64,000 nucleotides of DNA from Thermococcus barossii (lineage in GTDB: Archaea > Methanobacteriota_B > Thermococci > Thermococcales > Thermococcaceae). The position numbers and the translations under genes were made by a program. Shown here piece after piece: positions 9,040 to 13,795 of the stretch (the stretch's first letter is position 1; each line of letters starts with the position of its first letter). The notes under the pieces were generated by a model that was not told the DNA's origin, searched no databases, and worked only from the letters and a program-made list of their open reading frames with translations. The stretch covers positions 1,743,013 to 1,807,012 of the forward strand of contig NZ_CP015101.1 in the NCBI RefSeq assembly GCF_002214465.1. The letters run 5' to 3'.

Positions 9040-11718
9040 TCACTCAATTGTGACCACCGCGAACTCCGAGAAGGTGTCCGCGTCTCCCCATTCATCGCCC
9101 GGCGCGTTGTCCTTAACGGCCTCCTGGAGGGGCAGTACGTCCACAGCTGAATCACCGCTGCCCTGTCCAGTCACGTAGGCCACGATTTTCAGGTTCTTAG
9201 GCTCGCCCCCGATGACCACCCACGGAATCGCTATCTCCAGGGTCTGAAGTCCGTTTTCGGCGCCACCGGTGTAATTGTAGAATCCCACCCACTTGAGGTC
9301 CTCGTACTTCCATGCCGTCCCGTTCCACAGCACGAGCTGGGCGCTGGTTATGTTGCTGGTTCCGAGGTCTCCAAAGAACTCCCCGTTCCAGAAGAAGTAG
9401 AGCTGGGCGTCAACTCCCTCTGTAAAGCCCACCTTTCTGCCCCATGCATCGGTTCCGGTCGTGTACCCGCCGTCCTTGTAGTCAAGGGCTATGCCGTAGG
9501 CGACCCTCCATGAGGCCTTGTTCTCAGTTGTGAGGGCTATGTAGAGGAACTGGTCGTCGTAGTCAACGTAGAGTGCCTTGAGATTCGCCCCGTCCTGACC
9601 GAAGCCAGTCTCATCGATGGCCACCGGCTGGACGTCCCAGTCGTCGAGGTTTCCATCTATTGTCTTCGTGAGGTTCTTGGCGAGTTCCTCAAGATATTTC
9701 TCACGCTCGTACTCTCCTTCTTGGGCTTTTCTGAGCATCTCTTCCATCTCTCTGATAATCTTCTTGAGTCCAGTGTAGGCACGGTATATCTTTATTGCCC
9801 CCATGAATGCATAGTTAGGCTGGGTGATCATGTCCTTGCCTTCGTTGTAGAGCTTTACCAGGTCAAGAACTTCGCCCTGAAGCTCGTCGAGTCTTTCCTT
9901 CGCATCCTCCGGAAGAGGCATGTTCCTGAGTTGCTGGTCGAGCTCCTTGTACTTGGGATAGTCCTTCTCAAAGTGCCTGGTTCCGTAGAACATGTTGTGC
10001 ATGACGAATGTGTTCTGGAGCTTTGGTAGCCGTCCAACATCAAGGGTGATGGTATCAACGTTGTTGTCCTCGTTGAACTCCTCGATTGTGTTCTCAGGAT
10101 CAACTACTGCTTTGAAAACGTGGGTTCCCCACATGCCCGGGTACTCGTAGATGTACCAGAAACTGGCGTTGCCCCCTGCGGAGAGGTTCACAATCCACGA
10201 TGCCAGCAGTCTGTCGTTGTCATAGAGGGCAACGGTTACGTTCTTTGCCTCGACGGTTCCGAGGTTCCGGACGTCGATGGTTAAGTTGGCCGGCTTCCTC
10301 GGCTCAACATCCAGTACGTTGGATGTCAGTTTGACCGTAAGCTCGGGCTTTGGAATGGGTATTTCTATCACTGCAAATTTTGAAAGCTGGTCCTGATCAA
10401 CCCAGTCATTTCCGTCAACCTCTGGGTCATCAGGGACGGTATCTACCGCGGAGCTTCCATCTCCCCCGGCAACCCATGCCATTATAGCCAATTTAGAAGT
10501 GGCTCCCCCTATAGCGTTCCACGGGATCCTGATCTCCAAGGTCTGCAGGCCGTTGTCCCCTCCTGTATACGCGTAGCTAAAGCTTGCGAAGTTATATTCC
10601 CAGTTCTCCCAGTATTCTCCGCCCATGTCCCCCTTGTACCTGTTGAAGTTTGCGGAGGTTATGCTCCTGTCCCCTCCACTCCACCAGAAGTACAGCTCAT
10701 AATCAACAGCGTATCCATTACCAAAACCGATCTTTCTTCCCCAGGAATCCAAGTCTCCGGTGTAGCCGTTTCCGGTTCCTGGGTCAACGTCTATTCCTAT
10801 CCCATATGCAACATTCCAGCTTGCGGTATTGTTTGTGGTGAGTGCTATGTAGAGATACTGGTCGTCGTAGGACACGTAAAGTTTGTCCAGATCGGCGCCG
10901 TCGGGGCCATCTAAGCTGCTGACACCGACAACTTCATAGCTCTCCCAGTCGTCGAGGTTTCCGTCTATGGCCTTGGGGGCTATCGCCACTTCGGCGAGCT
11001 CTGTGAAGTAATCGGTGTCGCCCCACTCGTCTCCTCCATACCAGTTGGCATAGGGGGCGTCAAGGCTTTCCATTGCGCTGTCCCAGGGCAGGGCACTGAC
11101 CGCGGAAGAGTCACCCCCACCCGCTATCCATGCGACTATCGCTATCTTATCCCTCTTCCCGCCCAGTGCACTCCAGGGTATCTTTATTTCCATCAGCTGA
11201 AGCCCGGTGCTGGAGTCGCCAGTATAGACGAAATCTCCTCCAACGTCCTTGACACCCTTGTAGTCCCATCCTCCTCCGGTCCAAGTTATGAAGTTGTCCG
11301 ATGTTATCTTTCCATCACCGCCAGACCACCAGAAGTACAGCTCATAATCAGCGGCGTATCCACCTCCGAAGCTTATCCTCCTTCCCCAGGCATCGCTGGT
11401 GCCGGTGTAGCCGTTCCCGGTTCCTGGGTCAACGTCTATTCCTATCCCATAGGCAACATCCCAGCTCTGGGAGTTCCTTGTAGTCATGGCGACGTAGAGG
11501 TACTCGTCATCCCATGCTATGTAAAGATCGCGGAGATTGGCTCCTGCAAGGCCGTTATTCTCTGCCGTGGCGATGTGATCCAGAGTACCCCACTCGGCAA
11601 TGCTCCCGTCGAGGATTTTTTCCCCGTACATTGCACTGGCGAGCTTCCCAAAGGGCACTAAACTAAGCAGAAGAACGGTTATCAACACAAAGGCTGCCGT
11701 TTTTTTCACATCAAACAC
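9040..11718 (-). CDS. secreted protein with three CBM9/DOMON-like sugar-binding repeats and a CARDB domain
   Basis: An 892-residue exported protein. Residues 1-29 form a signal peptide (FVLITVLLLSLVPFGKLASA). Three homologous repeats of about 200 residues follow, near 35-245, 252-455 and 668-892, each containing LDxLYxxxDDxYLYIAxTT, SWxVAYGIxxD, a tract resembling AWGRKIGF, and LQTLEIRIPW. These resemble the CBM9-like C-terminal modules of Thermococcales amylopullulanases. Between repeats 2 and 3 lie a CARDB/Ig domain (about 455-560) and a charged helical segment (about 570-665). No glycosidase catalytic motif is visible, so it may capture alpha-glucan at the surface. It is divergent from 4-alpha-glucanotransferase and appears to share its sugar control through a TGM-like site. 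Confidence 0.8.
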   Translation of the reverse strand: MFDVKKTAAFVLITVLLLSLVPFGKLASAMYGEKILDGSIAEWGTLDHIATAENNGLAGANLRDLYIAWDDEYLYVAMTTRNSQSWDVAYGIGIDVDPGTGNGYTGTSDAWGRRISFGGGYAADYELYFWWSGGDGKITSDNFITWTGGGWDYKGVKDVGGDFVYTGDSSTGLQLMEIKIPWSALGGKRDKIAIVAWIAGGGDSSAVSALPWDSAMESLDAPYANWYGGDEWGDTDYFTELAEVAIAPKAIDGNLDDWESYEVVGVSSLDGPDGADLDKLYVSYDDQYLYIALTTNNTASWNVAYGIGIDVDPGTGNGYTGDLDSWGRKIGFGNGYAVDYELYFWWSGGDRSITSANFNRYKGDMGGEYWENWEYNFASFSYAYTGGDNGLQTLEIRIPWNAIGGATSKLAIMAWVAGGDGSSAVDTVPDDPEVDGNDWVDQDQLSKFAVIEIPIPKPELTVKLTSNVLDVEPRKPANLTIDVRNLGTVEAKNVTVALYDNDRLLASWIVNLSAGGNASFWYIYEYPGMWGTHVFKAVVDPENTIEEFNEDNNVDTITLDVGRLPKLQNTFVMHNMFYGTRHFEKDYPKYKELDQQLRNMPLPEDAKERLDELQGEVLDLVKLYNEGKDMITQPNYAFMGAIKIYRAYTGLKKIIREMEEMLRKAQEGEYEREKYLEELAKNLTKTIDGNLDDWDVQPVAIDETGFGQDGANLKALYVDYDDQFLYIALTTENKASWRVAYGIALDYKDGGYTTGTDAWGRKVGFTEGVDAQLYFFWNGEFFGDLGTSNITSAQLVLWNGTAWKYEDLKWVGFYNYTGGAENGLQTLEIAIPWVVIGGEPKNLKIVAYVTGQGSGDSAVDVLPLQEAVKDNAPGDEWGDADTFSEFAVVTIE

Positions 11719-11752
11719 CTCCGGTGATGTTCAATCCCCAAGGGTGTTCTGT

Positions 11753-11769
11753 AATCACCGGTAGTGAAT
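11753..11769 (-). promoter_or_regulatory. imperfect TGM operator for the secreted CBM9-like gene
   Basis: AATCACcggtaGTGAAT matches the Thermococcales Glycolytic Motif (TATCAC-N5-GTGATA) at 10 of 12 defined bases. On the minus strand it lies downstream of the TATA box, around the expected start of transcription, the position where TrmBL1/Tgr represses sugar-uptake and glycolytic genes when sugar is absent. Confidence 0.6.
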
Positions 11770-11782
11770 ACTTGGAGAAAAA

Positions 11783-11793
11783 GGTTTATATGC
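11783..11793. promoter_or_regulatory. shared bidirectional TATA element
   Basis: The AT-rich core GGTTTATATGC reads TTTATAT on the plus strand and ATATAAA on the minus strand, so it can serve both the glucanotransferase gene and the divergent secreted-protein gene. It sits between the two TGM-type sites at nearly equal distance from each. Confidence 0.6.
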
Positions 11794-11804
11794 TTTTCTT
11801 TCCA

Positions 11805-11821
11805 TATCACTGCTAGTGATA
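11805..11821 (+). promoter_or_regulatory. perfect TGM operator (TrmBL1/Tgr site)
   Basis: TATCACtgctaGTGATA is an exact TATCAC-N5-GTGATA, the Thermococcales Glycolytic Motif. It lies just downstream of the TATA box and immediately before the glucanotransferase start. In this position the regulator represses; maltodextrin releases it. Known from T. kodakarensis/P. furiosus; the site itself is read from the sequence. Confidence 0.88.
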
Positions 11822-11836: not shown

Positions 11837-13795
11837 ATGGTGAACTTCATATTCGGGATCCATAACCATCAGCCTCTCGGTAACTTCGGTTGGGTTCTGG
11901 AGAGCGCTTACGAGCGCTCCTACAGGCCGTTCATGGAGATACTTGAGGAGTACCCGAACATGAAGGTCGCAGTTCATATAAGCGGTCCTCTCCTTGAATG
12001 GCTTAATGAAAACAGGCCCGAGTACATTGATCTTCTCAAATCCCTTGTGAGGAAAGGGCAGCTTGAGATCGTTGTCGCCGGCTTTTACGAACCTGTTCTG
12101 GCGGCGATTCCAAAGGAGGATAGGATAGAGCAGATTAAGCTCCTCAAGGACTTCGCGAAAAAACTCGGCTACGATGCCAAGGGGGTCTGGCTGACCGAGC
12201 GTGTGTGGCAGCCGGAGCTGGTAAAAAGCCTCCGGCAGGCGGGAATAGAGTACGTCATCGTTGACGATTACCACTTCATGAGCGCCGGGCTGAGCAAGGA
12301 GGAACTCTTCTGGCCGTACTACACGGAGGACGGCGGGGAGGTTATAGCAGTCTTTCCGATAGACGAGAAGTTGCGTTACCTAATACCGTTCCGTCCGGTG
12401 GAGAAAACGATAGAATACCTCCACTCTCTCGATGACGGCGACGAGAGCAAGGTTGCCGTTTTCCACGACGACGGTGAGAAGTTTGGCATCTGGCCGGGAA
12501 CCCACGAGTGGGTCTACGAAAGGGGTTGGCTCAGAGAGTTCTTCGAGGAAATCTCCAGCGATGATAGGATAAACCTCACCCTCTATTCGGAATACCTTTC
12601 CAGGTTCAAGCCAAGGGGCATAGTGTACCTCCCAATAGCTTCGTACTTCGAGATGAGCGAGTGGTCCCTGCCGGCACCGCAGGCGAAGCTCTTCGTTGAG
12701 TTCGTTGAAAAGCTTAAGGAGCAGGGTCAGTTTGAGCGCTACCGCGTCTTCGTCCGCGGTGGCATCTGGAAGAACTTCTTCTTCAAATACCCCGAGAGCA
12801 ACTACATGCACAAGCGCATGCTGATGGTAAGCAGGCTGGTGAGGAACAATCCCAAGGCGAGGCGCTTCCTCCTTAGGGCCCAGTGTAACGACGCCTACTG
12901 GCATGGAGTCTTTGGCGGCGTGTACCTTCCCCACCTCCGCTCGGCAGTATGGGAGAACCTCATCCGGGCGAACAGCCACGTGGAGGTCGGGACTTTCGTC
13001 AGGGACATAGACTTCGACGGACGGGACGAGGTTTTTATGGAGAACGGGAGCTTCTACGCCGTATTCAAACCGGGCTATGGCGGGGCGCTCTTTGAGCTCA
13101 GCTCGAAGAGAAGGGCGGTCAATTACAACAACGTTCTCGCGAGGCGCTGGGAGCACTACCACGAGGTTCCGGGGGCGGCTACCCCCGAGGAAGGCGGCGA
13201 CGAGGGTGTCGCCAGCATACACGAGGTTGGCAGGAGAATTCCCGACGAAATAAAGCGGGAGATGGCATACGATGACCACCTCAGGGCCATCCTCCAGGAC
13301 CATTTCCTCGACACCGGGACTTCACTCGATGACTACAGGCTTGCGAGGTACCCTGAACTTGGCGATTTCCTGACGGGGGCCTACGATTACAGCACCTTCG
13401 AGGGGGGGATTACCCTCTGGCGCGACGGAGCGGTTGCCGGAAAACCCGCGCGCGTTGAGAAGTCCTTCCGCCTAACAGGAGATGGTTTCATCGTGGACTA
13501 CACCGTGAGGAGTGAAACCAAAGCCCTCTTCGGCGTTGAGCTTAACCTGGCCGTCCACAGCGTCATGGAAAACCCGGAAGAGTTCGAGGCTGAGAAGTTC
13601 GAGCTCAACGACCCCTACGGCATCGGGAGGATTGCGATAGAGCTGGACAAAAAAGCGAAGGTCTGGAAGTACCCCATAAAAACCCTCAGCCAGAGCGAGA
13701 GCGGCTGGGACTTCATTCAGCAGGGCGTTAGCTACACGCTGCTGTTTCCAGTGGACGGTGAGCTGAGGTTCAGGCTTCGCTTCAGGGAGCTCTGA
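11837..13795 (+). CDS. 4-alpha-glucanotransferase, GH57 family
   Basis: A 652-residue GH57 enzyme. The N terminus NFIFGIHNHQPLGNF is the first GH57 conserved region. GVWLTERVWQPELV near residue 112-125 holds the nucleophile Glu, and EYVIVDDYHF and AVFHDDGEKFGIWP (residues about 140 and 205-220) hold the conserved Asp residues. The C-terminal half is the beta-sandwich seen in the Thermococcus litoralis enzyme, whose length of about 659 residues is matched. It disproportionates maltooligosaccharides in the cytosol during maltodextrin use. ATG 11837 is chosen because it follows GGGGTGGTT; a GTG at 11816 would fall inside the TGM operator. Confidence 0.93.
   Translation: MVNFIFGIHNHQPLGNFGWVLESAYERSYRPFMEILEEYPNMKVAVHISGPLLEWLNENRPEYIDLLKSLVRKGQLEIVVAGFYEPVLAAIPKEDRIEQIKLLKDFAKKLGYDAKGVWLTERVWQPELVKSLRQAGIEYVIVDDYHFMSAGLSKEELFWPYYTEDGGEVIAVFPIDEKLRYLIPFRPVEKTIEYLHSLDDGDESKVAVFHDDGEKFGIWPGTHEWVYERGWLREFFEEISSDDRINLTLYSEYLSRFKPRGIVYLPIASYFEMSEWSLPAPQAKLFVEFVEKLKEQGQFERYRVFVRGGIWKNFFFKYPESNYMHKRMLMVSRLVRNNPKARRFLLRAQCNDAYWHGVFGGVYLPHLRSAVWENLIRANSHVEVGTFVRDIDFDGRDEVFMENGSFYAVFKPGYGGALFELSSKRRAVNYNNVLARRWEHYHEVPGAATPEEGGDEGVASIHEVGRRIPDEIKREMAYDDHLRAILQDHFLDTGTSLDDYRLARYPELGDFLTGAYDYSTFEGGITLWRDGAVAGKPARVEKSFRLTGDGFIVDYTVRSETKALFGVELNLAVHSVMENPEEFEAEKFELNDPYGIGRIAIELDKKAKVWKYPIKTLSQSESGWDFIQQGVSYTLLFPVDGELRFRLRFREL

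Follow-up and report, generated by a model that had tools for sequence, protein, structure and literature searches.

The putative shared promoter and its two genes

The window analyzed here is a stretch of 64,000 nucleotides from the 1.92-Mb genome of Thermococcus barossii. The region of interest is intergenic and lies between two divergent genes, one for an intracellular 4-alpha-glucanotransferase and one for a secreted protein. Its features are listed below, where strict TGM means TATCAC-N5-GTGATA.

11837..13795, plus strand: gene for a GH57 4-alpha-glucanotransferase (Pfam PF03065, PF09094, PF09095)
9040..11709, minus strand: gene for a secreted PF1109-type protein of 889 aa (CARDB, PF07705)
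10975..11631, minus strand: repeat 1 of the secreted protein, modelled domain (AlphaFold pLDDT 89; CBM74 Z 18)
11805..11821: op1, perfect TGM, TATCACTGCTAGTGATA, 0 mismatches, over the predicted glucanotransferase start
11753..11769: op2, TGM-like, AATCACCGGTAGTGAAT, 3 of 12 half-site letters mismatched to the strict TGM, over the predicted secreted-protein start
11713..11729: candidate third TGM-like site, 3 mismatches to the strict TGM, overlapping the ribosome-binding site of the secreted gene
11784..11792: shared TATA box, GTTTATAT read on the plus strand and CATATAAA read on the minus strand
11778..11782, plus strand: BRE in the glucanotransferase direction, AAAAA, fitting RRAAA at -36 to -32
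11794..11798, minus strand: BRE in the secreted-protein direction, GAAAA

As start codons, ATG 11837 on the plus strand and GTG 11709 on the minus strand give the best reading. The latter is preferred over the in-frame GTG 11718 given in the ORF list because it stands 6 nt after GGAGGTG, as it does in relatives. An earlier note on this DNA had described a perfect TGM and an imperfect copy on either side of one shared TATA box. The description is exact, with no mismatch in op1, three of twelve half-site letters differing in op2, and TTTATAT at 11785-11791 between the two, with a BRE on each side. That reading overlooked the second BRE and the TGM-like site at 11713-11729.

Promoters of Pyrococcus furiosus are reported to have a BRE at -36(RRAAA)-32, a TATA box at -30 to -23 and a start at YR (PMC6640164). 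The TATA box of the window has a BRE on both strands at the proper distance, and its position predicts starts near 11815 (plus) and 11762 (minus), 53 bp apart. The operator centres, 11813 and 11761, each fall within two bases of a predicted start. Some P. furiosus promoters are described as having a BRE on either side of a single TATA box and working in both directions, with starts 49 bp apart in the case followed in vitro (PMC6640164). The promoter here resembles them in its BRE on each side of one TATA box and its expected starts about 50 bp apart. That report treats the P. furiosus examples chiefly as sources of antisense RNA. The promoter here differs in that genes of one pathway are reached in both directions and a candidate repressor site lies at each start.

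The enzyme and the secreted protein

The only PDB match to the glucanotransferase is 1k1w, a 4-alpha-glucanotransferase; the gene itself is closest to Thermococcus. The secreted protein has a signal peptide followed by three CBM74/CBM9-like repeats, the last of which is separated from the first two by a CARDB domain. Best PDB matches to the CARDB domain are 3idu (E 1.8e-8) and 2kl6 (E 6.4e-8), the latter being PF1109 of P. furiosus (PMC8416519), and by this related domain the protein is of PF1109 type. PF1109 and the window protein were compared by their CARDB domains, which are homologous; they also share a signal peptide and a promoter with a TGM or TGM-like site. PF1109/1110 is reported as an extracellular starch-binding protein, found in the supernatant and increased on starch (PMC3824201). 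The secreted protein had been called uncharacterised, a label that does not wholly fit, since it groups with PF1109, for which starch binding (PMC3824201) and a place among TrmBL1 ChIP targets (PMC4706686) are reported. A starch link is thus already in print for a relative.

No Pfam family matches the repeats of the secreted protein. A profile of 19 repeats matches CBM9 structure 1i82 (E 0.017); with a cutoff of E 10 it retrieves no CBM74 chain. Repeat 1 was modelled with AlphaFold from the 19 aligned repeat copies (pLDDT 89). The best fold matches to the model are CBM74 structures of R. bromii Sas6 (Z 18, 204-207 residues, 21-22% identity), which include structures with maltodecaose and alpha-cyclodextrin; for 7uwv the match covers 204 residues at Z 18 and 22% identity. 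The match to CBM9 1i82 reaches Z 12, so the earlier label of CBM9-like was right as to fold, with CBM74 the nearer match. At 219 residues, the repeat of the window protein is shorter than the CBM74 stretch to which it aligns (252-572). The CBM74/CBM9-like fold of the model suggests that the secreted protein is of starch-binding type. About half of its relatives are longer, at about 1150 aa.

In five Pyrococcus-like genomes the homologue of the secreted protein is encoded away from the enzyme gene. They match the window protein over most domains, with 44-62% identity in the main aligned pieces; two of them were compared with the PF1109 CARDB domain and gave matches at 5.7e-28 and 4.8e-35. A query with the N-terminus of PF1109 found nothing convincing in nine Pyrococcus-like genomes. 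In four of the five, the homologue has its own promoter with a TGM, one or two mismatches from the strict form, downstream of a TATA-like box. The secreted gene therefore carries the motif in two arrangements. The fifth genome (G004) has only a four-mismatch TGM match at the homologue; the motif is reported missing in P. abyssi (PMC4158304).

The predicted regulator and its motif

The TrmB regulator domain is matched four times in the genome. It encodes a TrmBL1/Tgr orthologue of 340 aa with PF01978 and PF11495 and with Y49 and D50, the residues tabled for TrmBL1 in PMC4158304; its gene is situated in the same region as a malE-like gene that has a TGM. According to PMC4158304 and PMC4706686, a TGM downstream of the TATA box represses and one upstream activates. 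PF0272 and PF1109/1110 are both given as TrmBL1 ChIP targets with a downstream TGM (PMC4706686). The glucanotransferase gene has TATCAC-N5-GTGATA downstream of its BRE and TATA box, over the predicted start. For the secreted gene, the position of op2 fits the same pattern, with three mismatches to the strict motif and one half-site mismatch to the ChIP-derived motif. The likeness to the PF0272 and PF1109/1110 part of the TrmBL1 (Tgr) regulon (PMC4706686) extends to the motif, the downstream position, an orthologous enzyme and a related secreted protein. The difference is that for P. furiosus two separate promoters are listed (PMC4706686), while here one promoter serves both genes, with a putative operator at each start.

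Only two perfect TGMs occur in the genome, and op1 is one of them. Eighteen sites match with at most one mismatch, and 15 of these were taken as loci. Several precede genes that read as known TGM targets: by eye, genes for proteins like secreted alpha-amylase, sugar kinase, phosphorylase and triosephosphate isomerase; by Pfam, fructose-bisphosphatase and glucose-6-phosphate isomerase. Looser matches are frequent. With up to three mismatches there are 29 in the 64-kb window against 15.6 expected, and with up to two there are 48 in the whole genome against 57 for a reversed control pattern, which is no excess. Taken alone, the letters of op2 are weak evidence, since matches this loose run at only about twice expectation in the window and those with up to two mismatches show no excess genome-wide. 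The ChIP-derived motif of P. furiosus TrmBL1 (PMC4706686), which is looser at its ends than the strict TGM, was also scanned. It occurs with at most one half-site mismatch at six positions in the window, and three of the six, at 11713, 11753 and 11805, share one intergenic stretch. Both op2 and the site at 11713-11729 are one half-site mismatch from this motif.

Conservation of the candidate operators among relatives

A search of 94 genomes of the family found the enzyme in 83 and a relative of the secreted protein in 55. The region upstream of the enzyme was read in 81 genomes, leaving out two (G052 and G081) without a gene start. The divergent arrangement was called by tblastn in 41 genomes and by inspection in four more (G026, G046, G063 and G069), for a total of 45, with G084 set aside; the assignment of G046 is based on 185 nt of upstream sequence and, in part, on the very operator pattern, and is circular to that extent. 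In the 41 genomes called by tblastn, the matched start of the divergent relative lies 109-189 nt from the enzyme.

The perfect TGM on the enzyme side is present in all 45 genomes with the divergent gene. A second TGM-like site, with at most four mismatches and a spacing of 49-53 bp, accompanies it in 44 of these 45 and in two of the 35 genomes without the gene. For the strict tblastn set the figures are 40 of 41 and seven of 40, where five of the seven are reclassified or undecided genomes. The earlier note had an operator on either side, each positioned to repress, and this stands: both are downstream of the TATA box in their own direction and near the predicted starts, with the conservation just given (44/45 against 2/35). 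In single-letter shuffles, run on the 40 genomes with a spacing of 50 or 52 bp (G084 included, six with 51 bp left out), a match as good as op2 arose in 4.4% of shuffled sequences, compared with 39 of the 40 real genomes. Searches at other spacings returned 0, 0, 1 and 2 of 21. An origin of op2 by chance alone is ruled out by this conservation, and the case for op2 rests there, not on its own letters. The exceptions are G030 and G074, with a good second site and no secreted gene, and G056, with the gene and a five-mismatch site. In three genomes without the secreted gene (G030, G074 and G077; loci L099, L172 and L171), a TGM bearing two or three mismatches stands upstream of op1, at a distance of 49-55 bp.

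Relatedness was taken into account with an enzyme tree made by a quick method, which gave eight independent contrasts on well-supported branches. On average the second site goes with the gene in 7.2 of the eight, and in none does it go the opposite way (median p 0.016). Loss of op2 alongside the gene is partly expected, as op2 lies on the side that a gene deletion would remove. The position of the minus-strand BRE is informative on this point: it is on the enzyme side of the TATA box, out of reach of a deletion of the secreted gene that could take op2. All 45 genomes with the divergent gene have this BRE with a score of 4 or more out of 5, compared with seven of the 35 that lack the gene (the score of G093 was set by hand). 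One genome without the gene, G023, keeps this second BRE, and an antisense start some 50 bp upstream of the start for its enzyme would be expected there. In the tree contrasts this BRE goes with the gene in 4.9 of eight on average and never against it, with a median p of 0.06 that is not significant. All eight TATA columns are invariant in the 21 relatives with the window's type of promoter.

These results bear on two other readings of op2. One holds that TrmBL1 controls the glucanotransferase only, that op2 is a decayed or chance match, and that the secreted gene has its own TATA box or another regulator such as TrmB. It can draw on the three mismatches of op2 to the strict TGM and the commonness of loose matches; moreover, the genome encodes a 338-aa TrmB-type protein with Y50/D51, and TACTTGGAGAA at 11769-11779 is, by eye, one letter from the TrmB site TACTN3AGTA (PMC4158304). 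The conservation of op2 and the minus-strand BRE along with the secreted gene speaks against it, as does the separate TGM of the four Pyrococcus-like homologues, and the TACT site is lost in several relatives; we regard this reading as very unlikely. The other makes the secreted gene a bystander, with op2 serving the glucanotransferase by helping TrmBL1, as a tetramer or octamer, to hold op1. TrmBL1 is reported to form both (PMC4158304), and the spacing of 49-52 bp found in nearly all cases is close to five helical turns; the spacing does not separate the models, however, because it is also set by the two distances from TATA box to operator. Since op2 is absent from 33 of the 35 genomes that have the enzyme and lack the secreted gene, a role confined to the enzyme is highly improbable.

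Two promoter types

The relatives show two types of promoter, which differ in the sites on the secreted side. In the window's type, the second site keeps a TCAC-N5-GTGA core at 51-52 bp. The other type has one site at 50-51 bp and another at 70-71 bp, the latter covering the ribosome-binding site of the secreted gene. At this third position, 20 bp from the second site, the sequence is TGM-like in 19 of 19 relatives of the other type and in three of 22 of the window's type, and within the window's own promoter group the site at 11713-11729 is put forward tentatively. The third site could have been a by-product of the ribosome-binding site, whose GGTGAT is half a TGM; this was rejected, as none of 41 control ribosome-binding sites in the window matches equally well.

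Among the 45 genomes op1 always fits the ChIP-derived motif, and op2 is one to three half-site letters off it in every one. The site on the minus side is poorer than op1 by the strict TGM; by the ChIP-derived motif, the two are one half-site letter apart. From this conserved difference in sequence, control on the secreted side may be looser.

Relatives of the window's promoter type share an unexplained conserved stretch, CCCCARGGGTGTAC, at about 11733-11747 in the leader of the secreted gene. RNAalifold found eight pairs in this leader, none with changes on both sides, and a conserved RNA structure is not claimed because compensating changes are lacking. In G063 (L266, 404-2183), resolvase-like and TnpB-like frames, by eye of IS607 type, split the promoter from the rest of the secreted gene. 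In G015 and G028 (L268 and L269) the glucanotransferase gene was matched in two separate frames. The plasmid collection gave no match.

Proposed control from a shared TATA box

The reading we favor, and consider probable with good confidence, is a bidirectional archaeal promoter under TrmBL1/Tgr control. Its starts, regulator binding, joint induction and the starch binding of one product are all predicted from sequence. TBP would bind the near-symmetric TATA box either way round and TFB would read the BRE on either side, so that RNA polymerase could start near 11815 towards the glucanotransferase or near 11762 towards the secreted protein. When maltodextrin is absent, TrmBL1 would occupy both operators and block polymerase both ways. 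An operator at each start makes sense here because a one-sided block could leave the opposite direction open. Maltotriose or maltose would free the regulator from both sites and turn both genes on, yielding an intracellular enzyme that reworks maltodextrin and an exported protein, probably starch-binding, of the PF1109 kind.

The geometry also allows each operator to repress its own gene and activate the opposite one, with partial occupancy favoring one direction. Relative to the opposite gene, each operator sits 12-14 bp upstream of the TATA box, on the activating side for TrmBL1/Tgr, where a TGM is reported to activate while a downstream one represses (PMC4706686). Upstream TGMs elsewhere in this genome stand at comparable places, about 6-7 bp from the TATA box for fructose-bisphosphatase and 13 bp for glucose-6-phosphate isomerase, and the three genomes named above (G030, G074 and G077) keep the site upstream of op1 without the secreted gene. 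On the other side, op1 stands alone in most genomes without the secreted gene, the four Pyrococcus-like homologues have a downstream TGM only, and PF1109 is reported to rise on starch (PMC3824201), as plain repression predicts. We judge cross-activation of this kind unlikely, and give an equally small chance to its fuller form, a sugar-gated directional switch combined with an operator over the ribosome-binding site (many relatives have it as a tandem site at 20 bp). If it were true, a graded inducer would set the direction of a single preinitiation site, which goes beyond on/off control. Plain repression from both operators is favored, since the Pyrococcus-like genes have just one TGM, a downstream one, and PF1109 is induced on starch.

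The observation in the earlier note is therefore real, and its interpretation, partly supported, appears largely right. In particular, its link between the secreted gene and maltodextrin control gains from the conservation, from the separate TGM in four Pyrococcus-like genomes and from the presence of the regulator gene. The parts of the promoter are of known kinds; the new point is the conserved pairing of two operators on a two-way promoter. No such two-operator, two-way promoter was found in the literature searched, where Kanai 2007 (on Tgr) and Comfort 2008 are represented through other papers. It would be a regulated bidirectional archaeal promoter kept across much of a family, with both directions in one pathway, and a single repressor would have to close both. 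How archaea pick a direction at a shared TATA box becomes testable at such a locus. Promoter evidence from two gene arrangements also ties a widespread family of secreted CBM74-like proteins to the maltodextrin regulon.

Other TGM promoters in the genome

Two further loci (L010 and L011, G000:C1:1329560 and 1337966) have near-identical promoters in which TTAAATA is preceded, within a few bases, by a one-mismatch TGM, the placement for activation. The gene that follows L010 begins with a signal-like stretch and matches no Pfam family. At L213, upstream of the malE-like gene (near G000:C1:1861020), there is a one-mismatch TGM, and between it and the gene a second palindrome can be seen by eye, with the same half-sites and a longer spacer.
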